Source of the DNA: Stenotrophomonas maltophilia R551-3
Lineage (GTDB): Bacteria > Pseudomonadota > Gammaproteobacteria > Xanthomonadales > Xanthomonadaceae
Direction: 5' to 3'
DNA length: 64,000 bases
Assembly: GCF_000020665.1 (NCBI RefSeq)
Contig: NC_011071.1
Span: 2,284,501-2,348,500, forward strand
Below are positions 7,161 through 23,375 of this stretch, piece by piece (positions within the stretch are counted from its first letter, which is position 1; each line of letters begins with the position of its first letter). A program made the translations under genes and the position numbers. Under the pieces are notes generated by a model, which was not told the DNA's origin, ran no database searches, and saw only the letters and a program-made list of their open reading frames with translations.

Positions 7161-8813
7161 TCAGCGATCACCCTCGAGATCAATCACCCGGTCAGTCGGG
7201 CTCACGATGCCTCGCCGATGGGTGATGGCCACCACGGTTACATCATTCGCAAGTGCGCGGATGTGGTCCATGATCTCGCGCTCGGTGGCTTCATCCAGCG
7301 CAGAGCTTGCCTCGTCCAGGAACAGGATCGCTGGCTCGCCATACAGTGCACGGGCTATCGCGATGCGCTGGCGCTCACCGCCGGACAACTTCAGGCCACG
7401 CTCGCCCACCGTCGTTTCAAGGCCCTCGGGCAGCGCCTCGATCAACGGCAGGATCGAGGCCTTGCGTGCGGCATGCCGCAGCCGATCATCATCGCGCGCG
7501 CGCCCCAGCAGGATGTTGTCGGCCAGGCTTTCGTTGAGCAGGATGACATCCTGCGGAACCACTGCGACGGCGGCATGCCACGCCGCACGGTCGATCCGGG
7601 ACAGGTCAACACCATCGACCAGGATCCGGCCACACTGGGGATCGATCGACTTCAGGGCAAGCTTGAACAGGGTCGACTTCCCTGCCCCGGTTGGCCCGAT
7701 CAGGAAATTGATGCCGCCACGTTCGGCCTCGAAGGACATATCACTTACCCCGCGACCGTTGCCATAGCGGTGGCTGACCCGCTCGAACGCCAGCCGGCCG
7801 CTTTCACCCGCAAAGCGCTGGGCATCGGCTGCCTGTCGCTCCTCGGGCGCCGCCCACAAGGTGGAAAGCGGGGCCAGCATGCTCCACGAGCGCGCGACGT
7901 CATCGATCGAACGGGCAATCATCTCGAACGGCATGTTGAGCTGGAGCAGCAGCAGGTTGAACAGGACGATGTCGCCGACGCTCAGGCCGCCGCTCTGGTA
8001 GCGCGGCAGCAACAGGTGGAAGGTAACGATGAACTCGACCGCCAGGCCGATGCCCAGCAGTGCAATGAAGCCGATCCGCTGCAGTACGTAGGCGCGCCAG
8101 CTGTCGCGCACCTCCTGGGCCTTCTGCTCGAAGCGCTGCACCATCCAGGCGCTGCCGCCGAACTGGCGCAGCGTCTCCATGGCATTCATGGCATTGCCGA
8201 CGAAGCGCGCGTTCTGCTGCCCGGCCTCGACCGCCGCTTCGCGATGGATGCGTGCACGCCGGGTAGCGATGGCGGAAAGCGTGACGGCTACCGTGCCGTA
8301 GGCCAGCACGATGGCCACCACCTGCAGGTTGATCAACGCACCCAACGTTATCAGCGTCAACAGGATCTGCAGCGCACTGGGAATGAAGGCCACCAGCCCC
8401 AGCTGCACCACGATCTTCAGCGCGCCACGGCCTTTCTCCCCTGCCACCTGCAGCTCGGCGGCGTTGTAGTCCAGGAAGAAGCTGTTGGTCTTCTTCAGCA
8501 GACGGGCGAAGTAGCGGGTACTGGTGATGAAGCCGAGGTTCTCGCCGCTGAGGAACGACAGGTACTGCACCGTGTTCTGCAGGGCACTGCCCGCGCCCAG
8601 GATGAAGGCGTAGAGCAGGAATCCCCCCGCCAGGGCACTGGCCCCGTCGATGGGCAACCGGTCGATCAGGCGCGAGAAAAGGTACGGCGCAGCAACGCTG
8701 GCCAGGCTGGACAACAGGACACTGCCGGCGATGAGCAGCAGCAGCCTGCGGTCAGCCTTCCAGTACGCGCCCAGGATTTCAGCGACGGGCGGCGGAACAG
8801 CAGTCTTCTTCAT
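7161..8813 (-). CDS. lasso peptide ABC exporter (D-type, TMD-NBD)
   Basis: 550-residue half-transporter: six-helix export domain (residues about 15-300), then an ATPase domain with Walker A GPTGAGKST, signature LSGGERQRIAIARAL, Walker B ILFLDEASSALD and H-loop AITHR. Half-transporters of this type (McjD, CapD) export the mature lasso peptide and give self-immunity. The ATG at 8813 is chosen because the longer frame would run through the divergent promoter; AAGG precedes it at close spacing. It is divergent from the TonB receptor operon, with the shared AT-rich element between them. The assignment to the lasso pathway comes from cluster context. Confidence 0.8.
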   Translation of the reverse strand: MKKTAVPPPVAEILGAYWKADRRLLLLIAGSVLLSSLASVAAPYLFSRLIDRLPIDGASALAGGFLLYAFILGAGSALQNTVQYLSFLSGENLGFITSTRYFARLLKKTNSFFLDYNAAELQVAGEKGRGALKIVVQLGLVAFIPSALQILLTLITLGALINLQVVAIVLAYGTVAVTLSAIATRRARIHREAAVEAGQQNARFVGNAMNAMETLRQFGGSAWMVQRFEQKAQEVRDSWRAYVLQRIGFIALLGIGLAVEFIVTFHLLLPRYQSGGLSVGDIVLFNLLLLQLNMPFEMIARSIDDVARSWSMLAPLSTLWAAPEERQAADAQRFAGESGRLAFERVSHRYGNGRGVSDMSFEAERGGINFLIGPTGAGKSTLFKLALKSIDPQCGRILVDGVDLSRIDRAAWHAAVAVVPQDVILLNESLADNILLGRARDDDRLRHAARKASILPLIEALPEGLETTVGERGLKLSGGERQRIAIARALYGEPAILFLDEASSALDEATEREIMDHIRALANDVTVVAITHRRGIVSPTDRVIDLEGDR

Positions 8814-8847
8814 CGGCCTTGTTCCGGCGTGGACTACACCCTTGAAT

Positions 8848-8865
8848 GATATGCTATAACATATC
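8848..8865. promoter_or_regulatory. AT-rich operator/promoter element of the lasso cluster
   Basis: Inverted repeat GATATG-N6-CATATC between the divergent ABC exporter and TonB receptor genes. It contains TATAACATAT (8855-8864), which recurs exactly at 17787-17796 in the other divergent promoter of the cluster. No good -35 hexamer is seen at normal spacing, so activator dependence is likely. Confidence 0.5.
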
Positions 8866-8905
8866 CATTCAGGAGCGACGTCGCCACGTCGCAGGCCACT
8901 TTCGG

Positions 8906-11317
8906 ATGGGATTGATGGACCGGGGAATGACGAACGTATCCGCTGCCATGCCACGCGCGCTCATGGCCCTCAGCATTGCCGCTGCACTGCTGCCCAGCCT
9001 GCCCGCACTGGCCCAGAACTCCGGCAATGACCGCGGTTCGAAAGCGGCTGGCGCAGCGCCCCAGGCACCGACTGCGACCCTGGATCAGGTACTGGTGGTC
9101 GGCAGCAACATCCGCGATGCCATTGGCGGCGGCGCATCCCCGATCATCGTGATCGACAAGGAGGCCATCGACCGCACCGGCGTGGCTACCGTGCAGCAGC
9201 TGTTCGAGAAACTGCCACAGAACTTCGGCGGAGGCGCCAATGGTGCGAACGTCGCCAACCTTGGCGTCGACCGCGATACCGGCAACAACTTCGGCCAGGG
9301 CACCGCCATCAACCTGCGTGGCCTGGGAACCGGCACCACGTTGACCCTGATCAACGGCCATCGCGTGACCTCGTCGAACCGCTACCAGTACGTAGACGTC
9401 TCGCTGATACCGCTGAGTGCGGTGGAACGCGTTGAGATCCTCACCGATGGTGCCTCGGCCATCTACGGCACCGACGCCGTCGGTGGTGTGGTCAACATCA
9501 TCCTGCGCCGCGACTTCACCGGGTATGAGACCGCTGTGCGCTACGGCACCGTCACCGCCGGTGGCATGGAGGAGTACCAGGCATCGCAGTCGGCAGGCTG
9601 GTCGTGGGATGGCGGCCATGTGCTGGCCAGCTACGAGTTCCTGAAGCAGAGCAACCTGCCGGCGGTGGACAAGGACTTCTCGAAGAATGTGCGGGTCAAA
9701 CCGTACGACCTTTACCCCGGTTCGAAGCGCCACAGCCTGTATGTGGACGGCGTCCAGCAGCTCAGCGATGTGCTGACCCTGAACGTGACCGGCTCGTTCG
9801 CCAAGCGCGAGATGGATACCACCATTTCCGGCACCGCCGACGAAACCCGGCTGTTCCCGCACACGCGGCAGTTCGACCTGTTCGCCGGACTCACGCTGGA
9901 TCTTCCGCGCCAGTGGCAGGCGCGCCTGAATTCCGGGTTCGGCAGGAGTGACGTTTCCTATCAGCGCACCACCATCACCGGCAGTTCGGCCAGTACGGCG
10001 CCACCGACCGATACGAACTCCGAATCCCGCTACCTTGATGTGGTCGCCGACGGCGAGTTGTTCAGCCTGCCCGCCGGGCCGATACGCGCGGCGTTCGGCG
10101 CGGGCTACCGCCGCGATGGCTATGAGCTGATCGATCATCGCGGCCTGGAAAAGCCACTCGACCTGCATCGAACGATCAGGTCCGCCTTCGGCGAGCTCAA
10201 CATCCCGCTGCTGAAGGACATGCCGGGCGTGCGCAGCCTGTCCTTCACTGCGGCAGCGCGCTATGACGATTACAGCGATTTCGGTTCCACGCTGAATCCC
10301 AAGCTCGGCCTGCTGTGGGAGGCGACCCAGGGGCTTTCGTTCCGTACCAGCTATGGTCGTTCCTACCGGGCGCCGGTGTACCAGGACATGCAGTTGAACA
10401 ACACCGTGGTGGTGGCGAATGTGCCCAACCCGAGCGCAGCCAATGGCAACACCATCCTGATGATGCTCTCCAATGGCAACCCCGACCTGGGCCCCGAACG
10501 GGCCAAGACCTGGACCGGCGGTTTCTCATTCGCGCCGCCGTCGCTGCCGGGGCTCAAGATCGATGCGAACTACTACCACATCGAATACGCCGACCGGATC
10601 GGCAGTGGCTTCGGCGGCAGCTTCCCGTCGCTGTTCCTGCAGTCCACGGCACCCTACGCGGACATCCTGACCAGCAATCCGACCCAGCAGCAGATCCAGC
10701 AGGCGCGCCAGCTGGGCATCTCGGGGCTGGGCCTGTTCGTCTCGCGCGTGGGGCCGTATGCGCTGCCACCGGGAACGGACGAAACCAACAGCCGGGTGAT
10801 CCTGGACAACCGCTTCCGCAACAACGCCTTCACCCAGCAGCGCGGTGTCGATTTCAGCGCCGGCTATGACGTTGATGCCGGCCAGACCCGCATCGCGATG
10901 AGCCTGGCCGGGCAGTACATCATCGAATCAAAGCGTCGTGTGACCAGTACGTCGCCCGAGGTGGATGCGGTGAATTCGGTGTACTACCCGGTGGATCTCA
11001 AGATGCGCGGTGGCATCGCGCTGAGCCGGCAACAGGCCGCGGCGGGGATCTTCGTGAACTACGTGGACAGTTACCGCGACCCCGCCAATGTCGCCCGGCC
11101 CCACGTCAGCTCCTGGACGACGGTCGATCTGAACCTCGCCTACCACTTCGGTGCGTCAGCGGACCCGCAGCGTGGCACCTCGCTTGCGTTCAACGTGCAG
11201 AACCTGTTCGACCGGGATCCGCCGTTCATCGTCAACAGCATCAACACCGGCTACGACCCCACCAATGCGACAGCGCTGGGCCGCTTCCTGTCCATGTCGC
11301 TGACCCACCGCTGGTAG
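8906..11317 (+). CDS. TonB-dependent receptor of the lasso cluster
   Basis: About 803 residues: signal peptide (MPRALMALSIAAALLPSLPALAQ), TonB-box-like TLDQVLVVGS, plug domain (SPIIVIDKEAIDRTG, INLRGLGTGTTLTLINGHRV, YGTDAVGGVVNIIL) and a beta-barrel ending in aromatic THRW. It acts in the outer membrane for energised uptake. An in-frame ATG at 8846 is rejected because it overlaps the shared promoter element. ATGs at 8906, 8915 and 8927 are all possible, with weak ribosome sites. First gene of an operon with a split ABC transporter. Ligand unknown: the lasso peptide itself or a metal complex are options. Confidence 0.85.
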   Translation: MGLMDRGMTNVSAAMPRALMALSIAAALLPSLPALAQNSGNDRGSKAAGAAPQAPTATLDQVLVVGSNIRDAIGGGASPIIVIDKEAIDRTGVATVQQLFEKLPQNFGGGANGANVANLGVDRDTGNNFGQGTAINLRGLGTGTTLTLINGHRVTSSNRYQYVDVSLIPLSAVERVEILTDGASAIYGTDAVGGVVNIILRRDFTGYETAVRYGTVTAGGMEEYQASQSAGWSWDGGHVLASYEFLKQSNLPAVDKDFSKNVRVKPYDLYPGSKRHSLYVDGVQQLSDVLTLNVTGSFAKREMDTTISGTADETRLFPHTRQFDLFAGLTLDLPRQWQARLNSGFGRSDVSYQRTTITGSSASTAPPTDTNSESRYLDVVADGELFSLPAGPIRAAFGAGYRRDGYELIDHRGLEKPLDLHRTIRSAFGELNIPLLKDMPGVRSLSFTAAARYDDYSDFGSTLNPKLGLLWEATQGLSFRTSYGRSYRAPVYQDMQLNNTVVVANVPNPSAANGNTILMMLSNGNPDLGPERAKTWTGGFSFAPPSLPGLKIDANYYHIEYADRIGSGFGGSFPSLFLQSTAPYADILTSNPTQQQIQQARQLGISGLGLFVSRVGPYALPPGTDETNSRVILDNRFRNNAFTQQRGVDFSAGYDVDAGQTRIAMSLAGQYIIESKRRVTSTSPEVDAVNSVYYPVDLKMRGGIALSRQQAAAGIFVNYVDSYRDPANVARPHVSSWTTVDLNLAYHFGASADPQRGTSLAFNVQNLFDRDPPFIVNSINTGYDPTNATALGRFLSMSLTHRW

Positions 11318-11325
11318 GCCTTCGC

Positions 11326-12789
11326 ATGCGCGCCGGCTTCCCTGCCCTGTCCAGGCCCGCGATGGCGATCCAGCAGACGCTGGGTGTCGCCGCGACCCAG
11401 CTCACGCTGATGTGGCGCGAGCGACGCGTGCTGTGGCTCGCTCTTGCCCTGCTGCTGCTCGCGGGTGCATCGGTAGCCAGCGGCGCCGCGCGCCTGTCGT
11501 TGCAGGCGCAGGAGCGCCAAGCGATGAGTGAAGAAGAAGCGCGGCTCTGGGACAGCCAGGGCACCATCGATCCGCATGCTGCCGCCCATGTGGGCCGAGC
11601 CATCCCCGCACCAGTGCGGCCACTGGCGGCGCTGGATCCGGGGCTCACGGATTTCCTGGGGACCTCGGTGTTCATCGAGGGCCACGCGCAGAACCCGGCC
11701 CGGCACCGCGCGACGGAGGCTGGCACTGCGCTCAGCCGCTTCGATGGCTTCTCCGCGGCGTGGGCGCTGCAGGTCGTGGCGCCACTGCTGATCATCCTGG
11801 CCGGGTTCGCGATGCTGTCCGGCGACGTCGCCCGCGAGACGCTGCGCCAGGAGCTCGGCACCGGTGCCTCGGCCGGCGTGCTGATCGGCGGGCGCTTGAT
11901 CGCCCTGGCAACCACATCGCTGCTGCTGGTGCTGGCCATGCTGGTGTTCAGTCTTCCCGGCATGGCAGGCCTGCACGGCGGCATGGCGGACCTTGCAGCA
12001 CTGTTTGCCATGGCCGCTGCCTACGCTGTGTATCTGCTGGTGTTCTGCGCGCTCACGGTCGGGGTATCGGCACTTGCCAGTTCGGCACGGACGTCGCTGG
12101 TAATTCTGCTGGGGTTCTGGGTGGTGTCCACCCTGCTGGTGCCACGGGTGGCGCCGGCGGTGGCCGAGTCGTTGCACCCCACTCCGTCCGCACCCTCGTT
12201 CCGGGCCACCGTCACCGAAGAAGCGGAGAACGGCGTGGATGGCCATGATCCGGCAGACCAGCGCCTGGATGCCCTGCGCGCGGCGTTGATGGCCCGCTAC
12301 CAGGTCGAGAAGGTGGACGACCTGCCGGTGAACTTCCGCGGCGTCGCCCTGGAGTTTGCCGAGGCGAATTCCACGCAGACCTACAACCGCCACTTTGATC
12401 GCCTGCATGCCAGCTACCAGCAGCAGGACGCGACGCAGCGCCTGTTCGCCGTCCTTTCCCCAACCCTGGCCCTGCAGTCATGGTCGCGCGCATTCGCGCG
12501 CACGGATTTCTCCGCGCATCTGGCGTTCCTGCGCGGCGTGGAGGACTACCGCTACCGATTGATCCAGGCACTCAACCAGGACGTGAAGCGGCACAAGGCA
12601 CCGCCGGGCGGGAAACATGTTGCCGATATCGCGACCATCACCCGTTCGGTGCCCTACCGCCCCCAGCAGCAGCGCCTGGCTGACATCTTCGCGGCGCAGG
12701 CGGTGAGCTTCGCCATTCTGCTTGCCTGGGTGCTGCTGGCATGCGGCGTGGTCGTGGTGTCGGCGCGGCGCCTGGGAACACGCCCATGA
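11326..12789 (+). CDS. ABC transporter permease, DUF3526-type (first subunit)
   Basis: 487 residues with an N-terminal membrane anchor (LWLALALLLLAGASVASG), a large extracytoplasmic loop, then a block of five hydrophobic segments (LQVVAPLLIILAGFAMLSGDVARE and onward), a second soluble loop, and a C-terminal helix. This matches the ABC-2 / DUF3526 layout. The SGDVARETLRQELGTGAS motif is the usual cytoplasmic coupling segment. It starts 8 bases after the receptor stop, and its own stop overlaps the next permease start by 4 bases, so the subunits are translationally coupled. The substrate is unknown. Confidence 0.75.
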   Translation: MRAGFPALSRPAMAIQQTLGVAATQLTLMWRERRVLWLALALLLLAGASVASGAARLSLQAQERQAMSEEEARLWDSQGTIDPHAAAHVGRAIPAPVRPLAALDPGLTDFLGTSVFIEGHAQNPARHRATEAGTALSRFDGFSAAWALQVVAPLLIILAGFAMLSGDVARETLRQELGTGASAGVLIGGRLIALATTSLLLVLAMLVFSLPGMAGLHGGMADLAALFAMAAAYAVYLLVFCALTVGVSALASSARTSLVILLGFWVVSTLLVPRVAPAVAESLHPTPSAPSFRATVTEEAENGVDGHDPADQRLDALRAALMARYQVEKVDDLPVNFRGVALEFAEANSTQTYNRHFDRLHASYQQQDATQRLFAVLSPTLALQSWSRAFARTDFSAHLAFLRGVEDYRYRLIQALNQDVKRHKAPPGGKHVADIATITRSVPYRPQQQRLADIFAAQAVSFAILLAWVLLACGVVVVSARRLGTRP

Positions 12790-14144
12790 GCGCCTTGTCG
12801 ATTGCCGGCCATGAGATCCGCCGCCTGCTGCGAGATCGAGCGCTGCCGATCCTGCTGGTGCTGTTGCTGGCGCTGGGTGCCTATGCGGCATGGAATGGCC
12901 GGGTGTGGGTCGACCAGCGCGAAACCGCCATCGGCCTGATCAAGGTGGAGGAGCAGCAGACCAGGGACCGCAGCCGGGTCTTCGTCGGCAAGGCGCCCTC
13001 GGTGCTGCCTCGTGCGCAGCCGGTGCTGCCGCCCACGGCCATGGCGCCGCTGTCGATCGGCCAGGCGGATGCCTATCCCTATACCGCCGATGTGGTCGCA
13101 CTGGGCGATCCGACCCAGCTGCTCAAGCATGTGTGGGCCGACATCGGCAATCCCGCGGCACGCGCTGCGGGCCGGTTCGATCTGGCCTTCGTCATCGTCT
13201 TCCTGTTGCCGCTGGTCGTCCTGGTGGCCACCTATGACCTGTGGTCCCGCGAGCGCGAGCGCGGCATCGCGGCGCTGGTGCTGTCGCAGCCGGTTGCGGT
13301 GGCGCAGCTGCTTGTGGTCAAGGTGCTGGCCCGTGGTGTCGTCGTACTGCTGCCGGCGCTGGCCATCATCCTCGTGGTGGCGGCCTGGTCCGGTGCCCGG
13401 AGCGCTGCAGGCCTGGCCATGCTGGCCCTGACCGTGCTCGCCTATGGTGGCTTCTGGCTGGCGCTGGCGCTGCTGATCGGGTGCTTCGCCCGCCGCACCA
13501 CCGAGGCCGCCATCTCTGCCGGTGCGCTGTGGCTGCTGATCGTGGTCATGGCGCCGTCGATGACCCTGGCCGCGGTGAACCTGATCGCACCGCCACCGTC
13601 ACAGATGCGGTTCGCCACCGAAGTGAAGGCGACGCTTGCCGATATCAGCAAGCGTCAGCAGCGCGAGCACCTCGCTCATCCCGCGCCGCTGCGTTCGCCA
13701 CCTCCGGTCATCCCCGACGCAGCGCGGCAGGCCTACGCCGACCGGGTCGCCGCCGACCGTGAGCTGGCGCCCCTGATCGCATCGCATGCACAGGCCGAAG
13801 CGGCACGCCGTCGCCTGCTCGACAGGGTGCGGCTGCTGCTGCCGTCTGTGGCGGCACAGGACGCGCTTGATCGCATCGCCGGATCCGACGCCGACCGCGC
13901 ACTCGCCTTCCAGCAGCAGGTCGACGCGTTCTGGCAGGCACGCCGGCTGTTGCATCAAGGCTATCTGGACCGCGACGCGCCACAGACCCTCGATGAGTAC
14001 GAGGCACTGCCCCACTTCCAGTTCCACGAAGCAGCCGGCGTCGCCCAGCGCGGTGTCCTCGCCGATCTCGCCGCACTGATCATCGGCACCCTGATTGTCC
14101 TGGTTGCGGCCGGTGCGCTGCGTGGCCGGCTGGCAACGCCCTGA
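12786..14144 (+). CDS. ABC transporter permease, DUF3526-type (second subunit)
   Basis: 452 residues and a paralogue of the preceding gene: N-terminal anchor (ILLVLLLALGAYAAWNGR), soluble loop, FDLAFVIVFLLPLVVLVATYDLWSRE membrane segment, SRERERGIAALVLSQPV coupling motif, further helices, soluble loop rich in Ala/Arg, and a last C-terminal helix. The start ATG at 12786 overlaps the previous stop (ATGA). Two homologous permeases suggest a heterodimeric ABC-2 channel driven by the ATPase that follows. Confidence 0.75.
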   Translation: MSALSIAGHEIRRLLRDRALPILLVLLLALGAYAAWNGRVWVDQRETAIGLIKVEEQQTRDRSRVFVGKAPSVLPRAQPVLPPTAMAPLSIGQADAYPYTADVVALGDPTQLLKHVWADIGNPAARAAGRFDLAFVIVFLLPLVVLVATYDLWSRERERGIAALVLSQPVAVAQLLVVKVLARGVVVLLPALAIILVVAAWSGARSAAGLAMLALTVLAYGGFWLALALLIGCFARRTTEAAISAGALWLLIVVMAPSMTLAAVNLIAPPPSQMRFATEVKATLADISKRQQREHLAHPAPLRSPPPVIPDAARQAYADRVAADRELAPLIASHAQAEAARRRLLDRVRLLLPSVAAQDALDRIAGSDADRALAFQQQVDAFWQARRLLHQGYLDRDAPQTLDEYEALPHFQFHEAAGVAQRGVLADLAALIIGTLIVLVAAGALRGRLATP

Positions 14145-14156
14145 GGAGCCTCCCCC

Positions 14157-14867
14157 ATGTTGTCTGCAAAAAACCTGGTCAAGCAACACGGTGCGCATCG
14201 AGCGCTGGATGACGTCAGCTTCGAGGTGCGGCCCGGCGAGATCTTCTGCCTGCTGGGCGCCAACGGTGCCGGCAAGTCGACCACCATCAAGCTGTTCCTT
14301 GGCTTCCTGAAACCCACCTCCGGCGCAGCCGAGGTGGACGGACTCAGCGTGCACCAGCAACCACAGGAGGTACGCCGCCGGCTGTTGTACATCCCCGAGA
14401 CCGTGGCGCTGTACGACGAGCTGACTGGCTACGAGAATCTGGACTACTTCGCGCGCCTGGCCGGTGTCGAGGAACGCTCGCCTGCGCGGTTGAAGGACGC
14501 ACTCAGGTCCGCCGGGCTGGCAACCGACGCATTCGGGCGACGCGTGGGTCTCTATTCCAAGGGCATGCGGCAGAAGGTCGGTATCGCACTGGCCATCGTC
14601 AAGGAAGCCAGGGCACTGCTGCTCGATGAACCCACCTCGGGCCTGGATCCTACGGCGTCAGCCGAGTTCCACGAGCTGATCGTGCGGCAGCGTGATCGCG
14701 GCACGGCGATCCTGATGGCCACCCACGATCTGTTCCGCGCCCGGGAAGTGGCTACCACGATCGGTCTGATGCGGGCCGGCCGCCTGCGCAGGACGCTGGA
14801 TGCCAGCACGATCACCGCGAACGATCTTGAGAGCCTGTACCTGGAAGAGATGAGCCGCAGTACCTAG
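14157..14867 (+). CDS. ABC transporter ATP-binding subunit
   Basis: 236-residue ATPase with Walker A GANGAGKST (near residue 40), signature YSKGMRQKVGIA (a variant of LSGGQ, common in ABC-2 exporters), Walker B ALLLDEPTSGLDP and H-loop ATHD. It completes the receptor-permease-permease-ATPase operon and starts 12 bases after the second permease, preceded by a GAGGAG-like site. Its stop overlaps that of the convergent cyclase gene in the sequence CCTAGG, so no terminator fits between them. Likely role: efflux or immunity, by analogy with ABC-2 exporters in bacteriocin loci. Confidence 0.85.
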   Translation: MLSAKNLVKQHGAHRALDDVSFEVRPGEIFCLLGANGAGKSTTIKLFLGFLKPTSGAAEVDGLSVHQQPQEVRRRLLYIPETVALYDELTGYENLDYFARLAGVEERSPARLKDALRSAGLATDAFGRRVGLYSKGMRQKVGIALAIVKEARALLLDEPTSGLDPTASAEFHELIVRQRDRGTAILMATHDLFRAREVATTIGLMRAGRLRRTLDASTITANDLESLYLEEMSRST

Positions 14868-16705
14868 GCCACCGCGGCCGCCTGCGGGCCATGCCCGCCT
14901 GACCAGCGCCGCAGCCACGCCTCGATGTTGATCTGCGGGCCGAAGATGCCCAGCACCTGCGACGAGTGGTCCGGGCTGACCTGCTGGATGCCCGCATCGG
15001 CCAGCGCGCTGTCGAGATAGCCGCGCTTGGCCAGCATGCCGTCAACCAGCAGATTCCTTATGAACTGCTGGTGCCCCTGGGTGACCGCCACGGAGTGATC
15101 ATCCAGATAGGATTTCACCTTCCGCGACAGCAGCGCATCCGGTAACAGTCCCTTCATGGCACGCCGCGCGATGGTGCGGTCTTCTGCGTCTGCGATGAGC
15201 AGGTTCAGCGGAATGCGCGCGAACAGTTCAACAAGCGGCTGCGCACTGATCGGCGATACACCATGCCAGTTGCCGGCGCCTTCGAACGGATCAAGGACGC
15301 TGGTCGGGAACACCATCCGGCCGATATGGGCCAGCTTGTAGGGTGATACGCGATGGCCCTGCGCCTGCGCATGCCGCAACCAGGCCGGCTGCAGACCGTC
15401 CTGTTCGGACAGGTCCACCCGCACCCATGGGCAGGGCTTGCCCCAACGGCCATTGATGCTGCCCGGTCGCTTCAGCAGGCCATGCACGGCCGCGTCCTTC
15501 AGTACACCGTACAGAGAATCGCCAGACTGCGCGGTTTCGAACGCCACGCGAAAGAACGTCCGGTCGATGCCACGTCGCCAGGCGTAGTCGATCGCAGCGG
15601 CATTGCCCTTGAAACGCAGGAACACCGCATCACCACCGACGCCGGTGAACTGCACGGTGTTGCCGTCGAAGTCCACGTCATGGCGATGGAGCAGATAGCC
15701 GGAGCAATGCGCCGGCCGAGCCGTGCGCGGGAAGGCCATGATCTCTTCCAGCGCGCAGTGTGGCTGCCGCCGGTACTCGATGAATTCGCAGCGCCTGCCC
15801 GAGGATTCAGCAGCCCCCTGCACCGCCATCCGCGCGAACATCCGTTCGTCGGCGCCAATGCCGTCATCGTAGTGATGGATGCATGTCACCTCCGGTGCTG
15901 ACGGTGCATGCAGCAAGCCGGCCAGGATGATCGACGAATCCAGTCCACCCGACAGTTGCAGCTGGATGCGCCGGTGCTGGCTGGCCAGTGCGCCGATGCA
16001 CCCCAGCAGCGTGGTACGGGCCAGCGACACGGCCTCTTCCAGATCCTCGATCGGTTGGTCGCGGGCAAGCCGCACCACGTCCCACGGGCAGTACCGGCCC
16101 ACCGGCTCACCATCACGGATTGAAACCGCCTCGCCCGCTTCGACCGCCGTGACCTCCTGGAAGCAGGTCTGCAGGCCATCACGAAACGGGTACAGCAGCG
16201 AGTACGACAGGAAGGACCAGTCGACGCTGAAATCGCGCAGGCCCAGCATCAGGCAGTCTTCCATGTTGGAGAAGACCAACGTCAGCTGACCCACTGTGGT
16301 CATGTAGCACGGGATCTCCGCAGTGGGATCGCGCAGGACGAACCAGCTCGAAGTTTCCTGCTGGAAGCCCAGCGCCACGTAGCGGCCCCAGCACCGTTCG
16401 ACGATGCTGCGCCCCTGGCTGCTGCAGGCTTCGTCCGCTGTTTCGGCGTCCAGGTTCACGCAGCCAGGCACGGTGCCTGCGCCGAAATCCTTGTGGAACA
16501 GCTTGCCGAGTACTACCAGGGAGTTCGCACGGCGGCATTCGAAATAGCCGTGGTTGTCACTCTGCGCATGGATCGCTGCGCCATTGCCGTTCATCACGCA
16601 GGCGATGCCGGGCAGCCTGGCGCCGATCCTTTCCACGATCCGTTCCGCCTGCGCCGTCGCGGATTCCGAGTGGGTGTTCCAAAGCACGGCGATGTATCGG
16701 TACAT
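14864..16705 (-). CDS. lasso peptide cyclase (C, asparagine-synthetase-like)
   Basis: 613 residues. The N-terminal half resembles the glutaminase domain but lacks the catalytic Cys2 (starts MYRYIAVLWN), as in lasso cyclases. The C-terminal synthetase domain has the ATP-pyrophosphatase motif SGGLDSS at residues 252-258. The family adenylates the Asp/Glu side chain of the core and closes the macrolactam on residue 1. The start at 16705 is 11 bases after the B gene stop; the longer frame would overlap B. It converges on the ABC ATPase gene. The length fits McjC-type enzymes. Confident because precursor and protease are adjacent. Confidence 0.92.
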   Translation of the reverse strand: MYRYIAVLWNTHSESATAQAERIVERIGARLPGIACVMNGNGAAIHAQSDNHGYFECRRANSLVVLGKLFHKDFGAGTVPGCVNLDAETADEACSSQGRSIVERCWGRYVALGFQQETSSWFVLRDPTAEIPCYMTTVGQLTLVFSNMEDCLMLGLRDFSVDWSFLSYSLLYPFRDGLQTCFQEVTAVEAGEAVSIRDGEPVGRYCPWDVVRLARDQPIEDLEEAVSLARTTLLGCIGALASQHRRIQLQLSGGLDSSIILAGLLHAPSAPEVTCIHHYDDGIGADERMFARMAVQGAAESSGRRCEFIEYRRQPHCALEEIMAFPRTARPAHCSGYLLHRHDVDFDGNTVQFTGVGGDAVFLRFKGNAAAIDYAWRRGIDRTFFRVAFETAQSGDSLYGVLKDAAVHGLLKRPGSINGRWGKPCPWVRVDLSEQDGLQPAWLRHAQAQGHRVSPYKLAHIGRMVFPTSVLDPFEGAGNWHGVSPISAQPLVELFARIPLNLLIADAEDRTIARRAMKGLLPDALLSRKVKSYLDDHSVAVTQGHQQFIRNLLVDGMLAKRGYLDSALADAGIQQVSPDHSSQVLGIFGPQINIEAWLRRWSGGHGPQAAAVA

Positions 16706-16716
16706 GGCAGGTTTCG

Positions 16717-17418
16717 TTACAGCACCAGAATGGGAACCATCCGGCGCAGGTTGAAGGGAATGTCGGTCAGCACCTGATCGCCATGCTGCAGCCAGCAATG
16801 CGCGGCGAACGGCTGGGTTCTGACCGCGAACACCCAGCGCGGAACGATGCCGTACTTCGACAGGAACTCGCGCATCGCCAGGCAGTAGAGAAAGCACTCA
16901 TCAGTTTTCCTGAAGGCCAGGGGTCGTAGCCAGTCGAACACCCGAACCCGCGACGCCAGTTCTTCGATGCTCACGTGCGTGCAGTGGTCGTGATCCGTTC
17001 GACGGCGCGCGGCAGACACCGTGGCACTGAAAGGAAGGAATGTTCTGCTGCAGGCGGCATAGGCACACGAGACAATGAAACGACGCAGGTCCCGCGCCAT
17101 GATCGGTGGACGGCCACGAGGCGCGCCCTCGCGCACCCAATGCCGTGGCAGCGTAATGGCAGGGCTGGCGGCGGATTTGCCCTGCAGCGGGTCTGCTGTG
17201 ATCAAACGGCGGTCGATCAGGGCCTGCAGAAGCGTGGGAATGCTTGCGCCATCGGACCGCAGCGGCCAATCGAGAATGAGGTTGCCAAGGCCTGCGGCGC
17301 CGCGTCTTTCAAGGGAAAGATACCTGCCCGTGGCCTGATCCAGGATCACCATGGCATCGCCGGTGACGCAGACGTGGGCGTGCTTTGACAGGAAATACGG
17401 GGCGGCAGCCTGCTCCAT
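16717..17418 (-). CDS. lasso peptide leader protease (B, fused RRE-transglutaminase fold)
   Basis: 233 residues. Residues about 1-80 are a PqqD-like leader-recognition domain (VTGDAMVILDQATGRYLSLE). The rest is a transglutaminase-like Cys protease with the apparent triad Cys175 (KTDECFLYCLA), His207 (FAAHCWL) and Asp219 (QVLTDI). The single-chain B form is usual in proteobacteria. It removes the leader ahead of residue 1 of the core. ATG at 17418 has AGGAG at 6-base spacing; the adjacent ATG at 17421 is possible. It lies 75 bases after the precursor stop. Confidence 0.92.
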   Translation of the reverse strand: MEQAAAPYFLSKHAHVCVTGDAMVILDQATGRYLSLERRGAAGLGNLILDWPLRSDGASIPTLLQALIDRRLITADPLQGKSAASPAITLPRHWVREGAPRGRPPIMARDLRRFIVSCAYAACSRTFLPFSATVSAARRRTDHDHCTHVSIEELASRVRVFDWLRPLAFRKTDECFLYCLAMREFLSKYGIVPRWVFAVRTQPFAAHCWLQHGDQVLTDIPFNLRRMVPILVL

Positions 17419-17493
17419 CATGCGCTCCTGCGCCGGAACCGGAGAAGCGGTGCATGCAGGGCATGCACCGCAGATGCGACATTGCGCGGTAGA

Positions 17494-17655
17494 TCAGGGC
17501 GACGTGGTCGGGAACACGCCATCCCACAACGTGCCGTGGTTGTGCGCCTTCGTTTCCGAAACCACCGAGCCCAGCTCGATCAGTTCGCCACCCACACCCT
17601 GATCCTCAGGGTTCTGCTGTCCTGCCACTACACCCAGCTCAATCAGCTCGTTCAT
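17494..17655 (-). CDS. lasso peptide precursor (A)
   Basis: 53-residue precursor. Start ATG at 17655 with GAGGAG at 6-base spacing (an ATG at 17661 abuts the ribosome site and is unlikely); stop TGA ends at 17494. Thr35 is the conserved penultimate leader residue, giving a 36-residue leader and the 17-residue core AHNHGTLWDGVFPTTSP. Asp9 of the core (residue 45) is the only acidic residue in the core, so a 9-residue ring Ala1-Asp9 is forced. The leader has no YxxP motif but repeats ELIELG at residues 3-8 and 24-29. Calculated by hand, the lasso monoisotopic mass is about 1817.85 Da. Not known to me from the literature. Confidence 0.88.
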   Translation of the reverse strand: MNELIELGVVAGQQNPEDQGVGGELIELGSVVSETKAHNHGTLWDGVFPTTSP

Positions 17656-17687
17656 GAACATCTCCTCTAGTCAGTGGATGTATCCAT

Positions 17688-17717
17688 GCGTTGCGTTGGA
17701 TCGCGTTGCATTGGATA
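17688..17717. repeat. tandem 15-bp repeat in the precursor 5' region
   Basis: Two adjacent 15-base units on the plus strand, GCGTTGCGTTGGATC and GCGTTGCATTGGATA, differing at two positions. They lie 33-62 bases upstream of the precursor ATG, in its probable untranslated leader. This may be a regulator site or mere slippage. Confidence 0.4.
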
Positions 17718-17777
17718 CGGAGCAGCCAAGCCACCATCGCCGCCACATTGCGGGGCGATTGCCGCCAAGGCATCGAA

Positions 17778-17796
17778 ATGTTACGATATAACATAT
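17778..17796. promoter_or_regulatory. AT-rich operator/promoter element between precursor and ParB-like gene
   Basis: Contains inverted repeat ATGTTA-N5-TAACAT (17778-17794) and the 10-mer TATAACATAT (17787-17796) that also occurs at 8855-8864. It is a strongly AT-rich island in a high-GC region, between the divergent lasso precursor and the unknown gene at 17861. It is the likely shared control point of the cluster. Confidence 0.5.
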
Positions 17797-17860
17797 TATT
17801 TTGGCGTGACGAATGACGCCAGTGGCCCGTTGTCGATATGACCTACGAGAGGCGAGAGGG

Positions 17861-18787
17861 ATGAGCAGCGAGATCAGAGACGACGGCCTGGATCCCACGC
17901 TTCTGCTGAAAGGGATGTTTCCCTTGCCGAAGTTCATCCGTTTCGTACGGGAGCGTTGCCCACCGGGACGCTTCGACGAGGCTGCGCTGGTGGAGGAATG
18001 GCGGACGGCACGTGCCGAGGTGCTGAGGCTGCAGCAGGAGGAAGCCGGTGAGGCCGACGCCATCAATGTCCATGCGTTACCGGATGAGATGCTGCCGCTG
18101 GCTGAGCAGGCGCTGCGACAACCCTCGATGCACCGGATGACGAGTGTTCTGCCACGCAGTTGGCAGATGGTCGAGATCGATCGACTGGTGATCTTCCAGG
18201 AGTGCATCAACCTGCGTCACATCGATCAGTTGGCGGCATCCCTGACCGCCTCGCCCAGCGCGCAGGAGGTCATGCAGCTTGTCGCGCGCAGCGGCAGCCA
18301 TGCACATCCGGAAGTGCGCTTCACCCAGTCCGATGGCAGCTACACCTTCGCGTCCACCTCGAACGACCTGCGCTTCCTCGATGTGGCGACCCTCGATCCG
18401 GCTGCCATCGCCGACTACGAGCCGTTCGGCGCAGCCAGCCACGCCGTCGTCATCTATCTGGGTTTCAGTGACAACCTGATCAGTGCCACCCGGTTCGGCA
18501 ACCGCACGGTCCTGACCAACGGCTCCCACCGCCTGTACCTGCTGCGCAAGCTCGGCTTCCGCCATGCACCCTGCATCGTGACCGATGCCACCGACAGCGA
18601 TCTCAGCGAGGTTCTGCTGCCGGCAGCGGTCAAGCAGGATCGCGCGTTCTATCTGTCTTCGCCGCGGCCACCGCTGTTCAAGGACTATGTCGACCCGCGC
18701 CTGACCTGCGTGGTACCGGTCACCCGCAAGCACTACGCCCTGCGGGCCAAGCTCGATCTGCAAAGGATCACGGTTCCGGCGTTGTAG
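17861..18787 (+). CDS. uncharacterised lasso-cluster protein with ParB-like segment
   Basis: 308 residues and no signal peptide. The only recognisable piece is TVLTNGSHRLYLLRKLGFRHAPCIV (residues about 220-245), which resembles the ParB/sulfiredoxin-fold motif GxHRxxAxxxxG. An N-terminal helical region (LPKFIRFVRERCPPGRFDEAALVEEWRTAR) precedes it. The start ATG at 17861 follows GAGAGGG directly; the longer start at 17813 lies nearer the operator element. It is divergent from the lasso precursor and shares its promoter region, which suggests a dedicated role (tailoring, regulation or immunity). The function is not known. Confidence 0.7.
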   Translation: MSSEIRDDGLDPTLLLKGMFPLPKFIRFVRERCPPGRFDEAALVEEWRTARAEVLRLQQEEAGEADAINVHALPDEMLPLAEQALRQPSMHRMTSVLPRSWQMVEIDRLVIFQECINLRHIDQLAASLTASPSAQEVMQLVARSGSHAHPEVRFTQSDGSYTFASTSNDLRFLDVATLDPAAIADYEPFGAASHAVVIYLGFSDNLISATRFGNRTVLTNGSHRLYLLRKLGFRHAPCIVTDATDSDLSEVLLPAAVKQDRAFYLSSPRPPLFKDYVDPRLTCVVPVTRKHYALRAKLDLQRITVPAL

Positions 18788-21188: not shown

Positions 21189-23375
21189 ATGAAACGGAAT
21201 TGTTTGAGTCTCATGATCGGCGCGCTGCTGGCCACGGGGCCGGTACTGGCACAGGAATCACCGACGGCAGGCAGATCCGCTTCGCCGACCAACCTGGACA
21301 GCATCAAGGTCACCGCGCGCAAGCGTGAGGAAACCCTGCAGGAAGTGCCGGTGGCAGTCACCGCCTTTACCTCGGAGGCGCTGGACAGGATGAATGTCCA
21401 GGACATCAGCGACCTGGACGCGCAGGTGCCCAACCTGACCATCTACGCGGCGCGCGGCGCCAGCAGCACGGTCACCGCCTACATCCGAGGCATCGGCCAG
21501 TCCGATCCCACCTGGGGCGCCGATCCGGGCGTAGGCATCTACCTGGATGACGTCTACATCGCGCGCCCGCAGGGTGCGCTGCTGGATGTGTTCGATGTCT
21601 CGCGTATCGAGGTGCTCCGCGGCCCGCAGGGCACGCTCTACGGCAAGAACACCATCGGCGGCGCGATCAAGTACATCTCGCGCGGCCTGCCCACCCAGAC
21701 CGAGGGCTTCGCCCAGATCACCGTGGGCAACTACAGCCAGCTGGATGCGAAGGCGGCCATCGGCGGCCCGATTGGCGGCGCCGACAGTGGCCTGCGCGCC
21801 CGTGTGGCGGTGGCCAGCATGAACCACGACGGGTTTGGCGAGAACACCTTCAACGGCCAGCCGGTCAGCGACAAGCAGATCAATGCCGCACGACTGAACG
21901 TCGGCGCGTACGCGGGCGATGACTTCGACGTGCAGTTCGCACTGGACTGGATCGATGACCAGTCCGGCATGCGCGGTTCGAAGATGCTGGCGCCCAATCC
22001 GTTCCTGCGCGCATACCCGCCGATGGACAGCCGCTATGACATCCGCTCGGGCATGCGCAACCTCAACAACGTGGAGAGCAAGGGTGCCTCGGCCACGGTG
22101 AACTGGCGGCCGAACGACGACATTGCACTGAAGTACGTGGTCGCCAAGCGTGAATCGGACAGCGAGGCCAACATCGACTTCGATACCGCGCCGGTCAAGC
22201 TGGCCGACGTGGGTGGCACCTATCACGACGACCAGGTCAGCAACGAAGTGCAATTGAACTACGATGCCGGCGGCCGGGTGCGCGGTGTGGTCGGCCTGTA
22301 CCAGTTCAGTGGCGAGGCGGGCGGCCAGATCCAGAACAGCTACTTCAGTGCGCAGTTCGCCGACAACCAGGGCAAGGTGTTGACCGACAGCATCGCGCTG
22401 TACGCGGACTGGACCTTCGACCTGACCAGCAAACTCAAGCTGGATGTGGGCGCCCGTTACACCGACGAGGACAAGCGCGCGATCGTGCTGAACCGCCTGT
22501 ACGCCGACCCGGGTTTCAGCCGGCCGGTGGCGGTGACCGCGGACTTCGACAAGAAGACCAACTTCAAGAACGTCTCGCCCAAGGTCTCGCTGGACTACCA
22601 GATCACTCCGGACATCATGGTCTACGGCCTGGCCACGCGTGGCTTCAAGTCCGGTGGCTACAACATCCGCGCCAACGCTGTGGCCGTGCCACGCTCGGCC
22701 GAGCCGTTCGACGACGAGACCGTGGACAGCTACGAGGTCGGCAGCAAGATGGCCTTCCTCGACCAGCGCCTGTTCCTCAATCTGTCGGCCTTCTACAACA
22801 AGTACAAGGACATCCAGTTGTCGGTGTTCACCGGCCTGGATACCAATGGCGATGGCGTCGATGACTCCTTCTTCGGTGATTTCACCAATGCCGGCGCAGG
22901 TACGGTCAAAGGCCTGGAAGTCGAGTACCAGTACCTGCCCAGCCAGCACTGGCTGATTTCCGGCAACCTGGCGTGGCTGGATACCAAGTACGACGAGTAC
23001 ATGGATCGTGGCGTCAACGTGGCCAGGCAGATGAAGTTCACCAACGCGCCGGAGTTCTCGGGCGCGTTCAACGTGGAGTACCGCACCGAGCTGGCCAATG
23101 GCAGCAACCTGTCGGCACGGGTGAGCTACAGCTACCAGAGCGAGGTGTGGCCGACCACCGACCTGAGCCCGGTGATCCGCCAGCAGGGCTACGGGCTGGT
23201 CAATGCCGGCGTCATCTGGCGCCTGGATGATGCGTGGACCTTCTCGCTGCAGGGCACCAACCTGGCCGACAAGGAATACCGCACCACCGGCTACAACATC
23301 CCGGCGGTCGGCACGCTGATTGGCTTCTATGGTCCGCCACGCCAATATAGCCTCAGCGTCCGTTACGATTTCTAG
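21189..23375 (+). CDS. TonB-dependent receptor
   Basis: 728 residues: signal peptide ending LATGPVLAQ, TonB box DSIKVTARKREETLQ, plug domain (VPVAVTAFTSEALDRM, AYIRGIGQSD, GIYLDDVYIARPQG, VLRGPQGTLYGKNTIGGAI) and a barrel ending SLSVRYDF. This is the group typical of sphingomonads and xanthomonads that import hydrophobic or aromatic small molecules. GGGGGAGGA precedes the ATG. Two soluble enzymes follow at once. The ligand is unknown; the neighbours suggest a carboxylate or an ester oligomer. Confidence 0.88.
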   Translation: MKRNCLSLMIGALLATGPVLAQESPTAGRSASPTNLDSIKVTARKREETLQEVPVAVTAFTSEALDRMNVQDISDLDAQVPNLTIYAARGASSTVTAYIRGIGQSDPTWGADPGVGIYLDDVYIARPQGALLDVFDVSRIEVLRGPQGTLYGKNTIGGAIKYISRGLPTQTEGFAQITVGNYSQLDAKAAIGGPIGGADSGLRARVAVASMNHDGFGENTFNGQPVSDKQINAARLNVGAYAGDDFDVQFALDWIDDQSGMRGSKMLAPNPFLRAYPPMDSRYDIRSGMRNLNNVESKGASATVNWRPNDDIALKYVVAKRESDSEANIDFDTAPVKLADVGGTYHDDQVSNEVQLNYDAGGRVRGVVGLYQFSGEAGGQIQNSYFSAQFADNQGKVLTDSIALYADWTFDLTSKLKLDVGARYTDEDKRAIVLNRLYADPGFSRPVAVTADFDKKTNFKNVSPKVSLDYQITPDIMVYGLATRGFKSGGYNIRANAVAVPRSAEPFDDETVDSYEVGSKMAFLDQRLFLNLSAFYNKYKDIQLSVFTGLDTNGDGVDDSFFGDFTNAGAGTVKGLEVEYQYLPSQHWLISGNLAWLDTKYDEYMDRGVNVARQMKFTNAPEFSGAFNVEYRTELANGSNLSARVSYSYQSEVWPTTDLSPVIRQQGYGLVNAGVIWRLDDAWTFSLQGTNLADKEYRTTGYNIPAVGTLIGFYGPPRQYSLSVRYDF

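Follow-up and report, generated by a model that had tools for sequence, protein, structure and literature searches.

Why should a lasso peptide precursor of only 53 residues carry the same six-residue motif twice in its leader? The question is raised by gene A of Stenotrophomonas maltophilia R551-3, which lies in a stretch of 64,000 nucleotides (contig NC_011071.1, positions 2,284,501 to 2,348,500), hereafter the window, to which all coordinates below refer. A sequence-only reading of the window had predicted a lasso peptide with an Ala1–Asp9 ring, and had suggested that the two ELIELG motifs might offer two binding registers to the PqqD-like domain of the B protein. We consider it probable that A is a class II lasso precursor with the remains of a tandemly duplicated leader–core unit, that its first motif is maintained by selection, and that its product is a 17-residue lasso closed between Ala1 and Asp9.

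The precursor and its core

The reading frame of gene A runs from 17655 to 17494 on the minus strand (53 codons plus stop), giving the leader MNELIELGVVAGQQNPEDQGVGGELIELGSVVSETK and the core AHNHGTLWDGVFPTTSP. An alternative in-frame ATG at 17661 would yield a precursor of 55 residues, but the shorter version is preferred because an AGGAG sequence lies 6 nucleotides ahead of the ATG at 17655, whereas it directly abuts that at 17661. The features of the gene are as follows:

17494..17655, minus strand: precursor gene A, 53 amino acids (leader of 36, then the core), stop codon included; identified from its open reading frame, ribosome-binding site and 52 intact homologues
17632..17649, minus strand: first ELIELG motif, residues 3–8; predicted to be the retained part of a decayed first leader–core copy
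17569..17586, minus strand: second ELIELG motif, residues 24–29 (L25 at −12, G29 at −8); this copy of the leader is the one in register with the core
17497..17547, minus strand: core peptide, predicted Ala1–Asp9 macrolactam, with a conserved TTSP in the tail

A scan of 17400–17900 found no promoter-like site; a terminator-like site lies inside gene A on the plus strand (17530–17546; mean of 0.2 in shuffles).

Two protein database searches, admitting E values up to 10, returned 19 and 57 proteins (57 distinct identifiers overall), the profile search being open to precursors between about 31 and 99 residues long. Judged by reading, 52 of the 57 were taken as intact family members, 46 of them long and the other six short, with a single motif. 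The counts leave out the three benenodin-type outgroups (P0054, P0056 and P0057) and two proteins (P0015 and P0017) whose core has been lost or is out of frame. Four of the short forms (P0037, P0040, P0049 and P0052) match with E ≤ 1e-7, whereas P0053 (E 0.3) and P0055 (E 2.7) are weak matches, and these two lack the His pair of the core ring. The script pattern required Thr (or Pro) at −2, but its skip list held no further sequence, so that none was lost for a missing Thr. All 52 proteins, the two weak matches included, have Thr at −2, as does precursor A, and an acidic residue at core position 9 (49 Asp and 3 Glu, divided as 44 and 2 in the long forms and 5 and 1 in the short ones). The alignment that had been proposed as a check therefore bears out both positions. 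Moreover, Asp9 is the sole acidic residue of the core, so the ring can close only there, as had been predicted.

Two traits that had been singled out as unusual are ordinary here. Ala1 is present, and stands as the predicted ring residue, but it is shared by 36 of the 46 long forms, the other 10 having Gly; additionally, Gly, Cys, Ser and Ala are listed as residues observed at lasso position 1 (PMC12670498). The leader does lack YxxP: in the −17 to −14 register, taken from PMC10368454, both ends are occupied by glycines (Gly20 and Gly23, respectively). Within the ring, His2, His4 and Gly5 are invariant in the long forms (n=46). The HxH of the predicted ring (17497–17547), together with the TonB receptor of the cluster, may hint at metal binding. 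In P0015 and P0017 the leader motif is intact; these would be natural non-producers or sequencing errors.

A genus-level search found a precursor match in 15 of 91 genomes (14 strong, own genome included; the one at E 0.009 was dropped), and a family sample gave 15 of 395 (12 strong; three matches at E 0.003–0.009 were dropped). A class-wide search (query A3) found two in 369 genomes, the source genome and one of the same genus, and a plasmid search with the precursor gave no match.

An Ala1–Asp9 lasso is the likely product. The conserved Thr(−2) and position 9 acid are accompanied by B and C proteins and an exporter (described below), while threading is a prediction, and it is here that the alternative of an unthreaded, branched-cyclic peptide has to be weighed. 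Threading cannot be read from a sequence, and C is distant from the curated lasso cyclases; against this, lasso-type B and C genes lie side by side, and the pattern of cysteines in the family favours a threaded product. In 13 precursors core position 3 is Cys, and each of these has a second Cys in the tail, two residues ahead of the TT (twelve were counted by script and P0047 by eye). A tail Cys without Cys3 occurs in three, and 36 have neither (Fisher 9e-10, for sequences that are related to one another). The tail Cys falls anywhere from position 12 to 16, as the loop after residue 9 varies, and its distance to the TT is fixed. Because Cys3 always comes with the tail Cys, the pattern lends indirect support to threading, being that expected of a ring–tail disulfide in a threaded peptide, and these pairs predict a branch of the family with such a bond. 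We therefore regard the unthreaded alternative as improbable. The precursors with an HCH ring and a tail Cys are P0026, P0027, P0033, P0035, P0041–P0044 and P0046–P0050; the corresponding places in the window core would be Asn3 and Phe12.

The repeated leader motif

The exact repeat, residues 3–8 and 24–29 at an offset of 21, is as had been described, and an exact repeat of at least six residues arose in just 21 of 200,000 shuffles of the precursor A leader. The repeat is thus real, but it appears to be more than two copies of a docking motif: the N-terminal half of the precursor is most likely a decayed tandem copy of both leader and core. This can be seen in P0027, in which the full leader ELIELGLVVAETK and about ten core residues are present twice, in the layout MNELIELGLVVAETK-APNHGDLRDG-ELIELGLVVAETK-GHCHGTLPDAGPCYTTSPPY. 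Similarly, AHNHGDL sits in the linker of P0016, and in P0026 EAKAHD stands opposite ETKAHC. No precursor with two intact cores was found when the 57 listed proteins were read by eye.

The residues that follow the two motifs were set against each other, without gaps at the motif offset and with 20,000 shuffles, in 46 long precursors (the window's included, and the near-identical P0001 excluded). In 33 of these p was below 0.05, and in three it reached the lowest value possible, 5e-5; for the window precursor itself p was 0.017, with 2 of 15 residues identical. The remaining 13 (e.g. P0008, P0009, P0013, P0020 and P0021) show nothing significant beyond the motif. The period is exactly 23 residues, corresponding to 13 of leader and 10 of core, in 24 precursors, and for these the column profiles yield a z of 6.95 at offset 0, with p at its lower limit of 5e-6 and similarity extending 17 columns beyond the motif; the eight other offsets tried all fell below zero. 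The signal persists on removal of P0016 and P0027 (z 6.15), and also of nine identifiers chosen as the closest matching (eight of them in the set, leaving 16; z 5.38, p 1e-5). Periods are 18 or 21 in Stenotrophomonas forms and 19 or 20 in most Xanthomonas forms, and we read these shorter periods as later deletions. The single-motif state is likely to be ancestral, because the outgroups have one motif. The upstream extension of P0037 contains no first motif. The short forms (e.g. MDELIELGMVTSETK-AHNHGWFWDWILPTTSP) have a leader of 15 residues, as against the 20–40 that a review gives as general (PMC13352647).

The first copy has not decayed evenly. In 16 A genes, codons 2–8 have a ratio of the proportions of non-synonymous and synonymous differences (pN/pS) of 0.081; the six codons after them have 0.84, motif 2 has 0.055 and core residues 1–9 have 0.084. 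Between the 11 Stenotrophomonas genes and the five others, motif 1 has pS 0.78 and pN 0.06. By these measures motif 1 is kept at the protein level, whereas its own cut site and core have drifted, and the purifying selection on it suggests that the first ELIELG probably does something. Its absence from the six short forms and the loss of its Gly (G8) in 3 of the 46 long ones speak against a strict need for it. The motif 2 Gly, G(−8), is kept in all 46, as is L(−12), with L(−9) in 45 and an Ile in the other.

What, then, is the first motif for? The two-register proposal would have both motifs bind the RiPP (ribosomally synthesized and post-translationally modified peptide) recognition element (RRE) of B, in turn or through two B molecules. 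The arrangement is possible, in that the motifs are nearly identical, both are under purifying selection, and Leu(−12) of motif 2 (L25) lies within the register of the YxxPxL leader motif, as given in PMC10368454. We nevertheless think it unlikely: the six short relatives have a single motif, P0010, P0014 and P0021 carry a degraded motif 1, and in a leader–B model only residues 29–41 of residues 1–82 lie outside stretches with a predicted local distance difference test score (pLDDT) below 50. Somewhat likelier, though still less likely than not, is that motif 1 was retained to dock another cluster protein, be it the enzyme encoded at 17861–18787, C or the exporter. All 15 distinct loci compared have the 17861 gene, and the 20 precursor matches paired by eye with matches to it are all long forms, none short; but with just the longest contig listed per cluster, little can be made of its absence for the six short ones, and the Xanthomonas codiaei precursor has a degraded motif 1 at a locus that retains the gene, in two frames.

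A constraint on the DNA or on the start of translation, rather than on the peptide, would suit a conserved N-terminus that follows the start codon, with the 20 nucleotides ahead of it also similar across loci; it is very improbable, given that synonymous differences in motif 1 match those in the linker and core while its non-synonymous ones are rare. Chance, or convergence on the same short motif with no duplication, is an origin of the repeat to which we give hardly any credence: the 13 precursors with nothing significant beyond the motif are compatible with it, but the similarity well past the motif in the period-23 members, at offset 0 only, and the rarity of such a repeat in shuffled leaders are not.

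Under the duplication that we prefer, an ancestral short gene (about 32 amino acids) encoding one leader and core would have doubled in tandem; the first core and its cut site would have decayed, while selection would have retained ELIELG, the likeliest role of which is an additional contact, lengthening a leader that at 15 residues is unusually short. In processing, the RRE of B would bind the copy of the leader that adjoins the core, L(−12)xxLG(−8)xxxxxT(−2), and the peptidase domain of B would cut after Lys(−1); C would then close the ring around the tail by linking the amine of Ala1 with the side chain of Asp9, giving the 17-residue lasso (calculated [M+2H]2+ 909.93), for export by D. If so, the growth of a lasso leader can be traced here, from a short leader–core gene that doubles, through death of the first core, to a recognition motif that stays under selection, and the 32-residue single forms, near-perfect doubles like P0027 and the decayed forms are natural intermediates with which to address which parts a leader cannot do without.

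The surrounding cluster and its divergent gene

The remaining genes of the cluster are as follows:

16717..17421, minus strand: B protein, N-terminal RRE (PqqD-like) and transglutaminase-like leader peptidase
14864..16705, minus strand: C protein, Asn-synthetase-like macrolactam synthetase (PF00733, SGGLDS), 613 amino acids from a conserved Met
14157..14867, plus strand: ABC transporter ATPase, convergent with C
12741..14144, plus strand: ABC-2 permease with DUF3526
11326..12789, plus strand: ABC-2 permease with DUF3526
8846..11317, plus strand: TonB-dependent receptor
7161..8954, minus strand: ABC exporter (ABC_membrane and ABC_tran), the probable D protein
17861..18787, plus strand: conserved divergent gene, 308 amino acids, predicted ParB/sulfiredoxin/SerK fold, candidate tailoring kinase

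B passes the cut-offs of Pfam Transglut_core3 and NCBIfam lasso_biosyn_B2, and no second match to NF033537 was found in the genome. The B query also gave weak, partial matches in other genomes (L013, L015–L021), which were left aside. C has the SGGxDS signature as SGGLDS and scores 68.6 bits against PF00733 (cut-off 21), but falls below the cut-off of the specific model NF033535 (22.5 against 525). The longest C frame (14864–16897) begins at a GTG at 16897 within B, whereas in the Xanthomonas-type loci conservation of C starts mostly from the Met at 16705. Rank, probability and VIA Z are the basis of the RRE and sulfiredoxin fold assignments; Foldseek gave no match that passed E 0.001 for either model, and a PDB sequence search gave one chance-level match for B (E 0.078) and none for C or for a 324-residue reading of the divergent gene.

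The conserved block, reaching from the divergent gene as far as the two permeases, occurs in 9 of 11 loci (L022–L030; eight Stenotrophomonas and one Xanthomonas pisi), L031 (Brevundimonas) and L032 (Sphingopyxis) being other lasso clusters that lack it. It occurs, too, in all seven precursor-bearing extended loci (L050–L056), each with the TonB receptor, and since L054 repeats the X. pisi locus L030 this makes 15 distinct loci. The exporter adjoins the divergent gene in six Xanthomonas-type loci (L030, L051, L052, L055, L056 and the repeat L054), the domain content of the exporter relative having been checked in L051. The frame hyp_7218 was rejected as a gene, being an antisense frame of the exporter (8954..7161). 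None of the 13 window proteins compared with NCBIfam qualifies as the isopeptidase NF033523; a polyhydroxybutyrate (PHB)-depolymerase-like protein outside the conserved block scores 22.8 against a cut-off of 400. A second TonB receptor (21189–23375), an AraC regulator and the PHB-depolymerase-like esterase flank some loci, not all.

The divergent gene is unannotated and has a conserved start at 17861. Its product has a GxHR box and a predicted ParB/sulfiredoxin fold, a distant match that places it in this superfamily. It is not a sulfiredoxin proper: at what we take to be the place of the catalytic Cys, the box has Ser, His or Tyr in all 14 rows read, out of 55. The gene is split in two frames in two Xanthomonas-type drafts (L052:9402-10375 and L056:9394-10315), by frameshift or assembly error. 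A phylum-wide search (query A6) matched 5 of 398 genomes, of which three are the source genome and two of the same genus; the matches in G972 and G1003 were rejected by eye, covering only ~40 positions, with an ordinary ParB-type look and a mobile-element setting.

On four plasmids, relatives of the protein are encoded directly after genes for Ser-rich peptides, and this makes the divergent gene a candidate for a kinase acting on peptides, here on the TTS tail of the lasso; the product with one phosphate would have a calculated [M+2H]2+ of 949.91. More broadly, the predicted fold raises the possibility, which we think less likely than not, of a family of RiPP-tailoring Ser/Thr kinases with a ParB/sulfiredoxin/SerK fold, phosphorylating TTS here and Ser-rich repeat peptides in the alphaproteobacterial relatives, in which case the latter peptides would be exported by peptidase-type ABC transporters. 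That the retained first ELIELG is the docking site of this kinase, so that one duplicated leader serves two enzymes, is a further extension that we think doubtful indeed. The plasmid loci (L070:6736-7888, L071:6599-7816, L072:6686-7918 and L073:1334-2593) encode GA-leader peptides with Ser-rich repetitive cores, near HlyD and peptidase-domain ABC exporters, and may represent a new RiPP type. In the titles and abstract openings listed by the literature searches, we found no description of this precursor, of a duplicated lasso leader or of a lasso cluster with a ParB/sulfiredoxin protein; the 17861 protein, with its plasmid relatives after Ser-rich peptide genes, points to a tailoring enzyme without a description in that literature.

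Comparison with known systems

Among the known lasso peptides that come close are the benenodin/subterisin precursors (PF24178, NF033522), in which the leader motif LIELGSVxxETK immediately precedes the core (P0054 and P0056). Matches of the window precursor to the Pfam Subterisin and NCBIfam benenodin models cover residues 22–36 but fall below the cut-offs (16.4 against 27 and 16.9 against 33, respectively), and on these scores it falls outside that family. It differs in its AHxHG...TTSP core, its duplicated leader, and an ABC exporter in place of the isopeptidase that PMC5067487 reports in clusters of the astexin, sphingopyxin and caulosegnin types. StcA of Stenotrophomonas acidaminiphila and the xanthomonins, from the same genus or family, also have a leader without YxxP, with a single motif, but a predicted seven-residue ring with Gly1 (PMC4675943) and no AHxHG core; the B protein of a similar locus (L010) is just 26% identical to that of the window. 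With the microcin J25-type systems (mcjABCD) the window shares A, B, C and an ABC exporter D (PMC5067487). To this set it adds the TonB receptor, the ABC/DUF3526 genes, the ParB/sulfiredoxin-fold gene and the duplicated leader.

The lasso peptide kinases PadeK, ThcoK, PsmK and BsfK have another fold than the ParB/sulfiredoxin/SerK-like one predicted for the window candidate. They resemble it in that a tailoring enzyme gene lies beside A and core hydroxyls are conserved, here TTS (PMC9266682 and PMC10368454). SerK, SbnI, sulfiredoxin and ParB, for which structures have been solved, share the predicted fold and the GxHR box with the 17861 protein. The latter differs from all four in its extra N-terminal region and its setting in peptide gene clusters, and from sulfiredoxin, additionally, in the residue at the presumed catalytic position.
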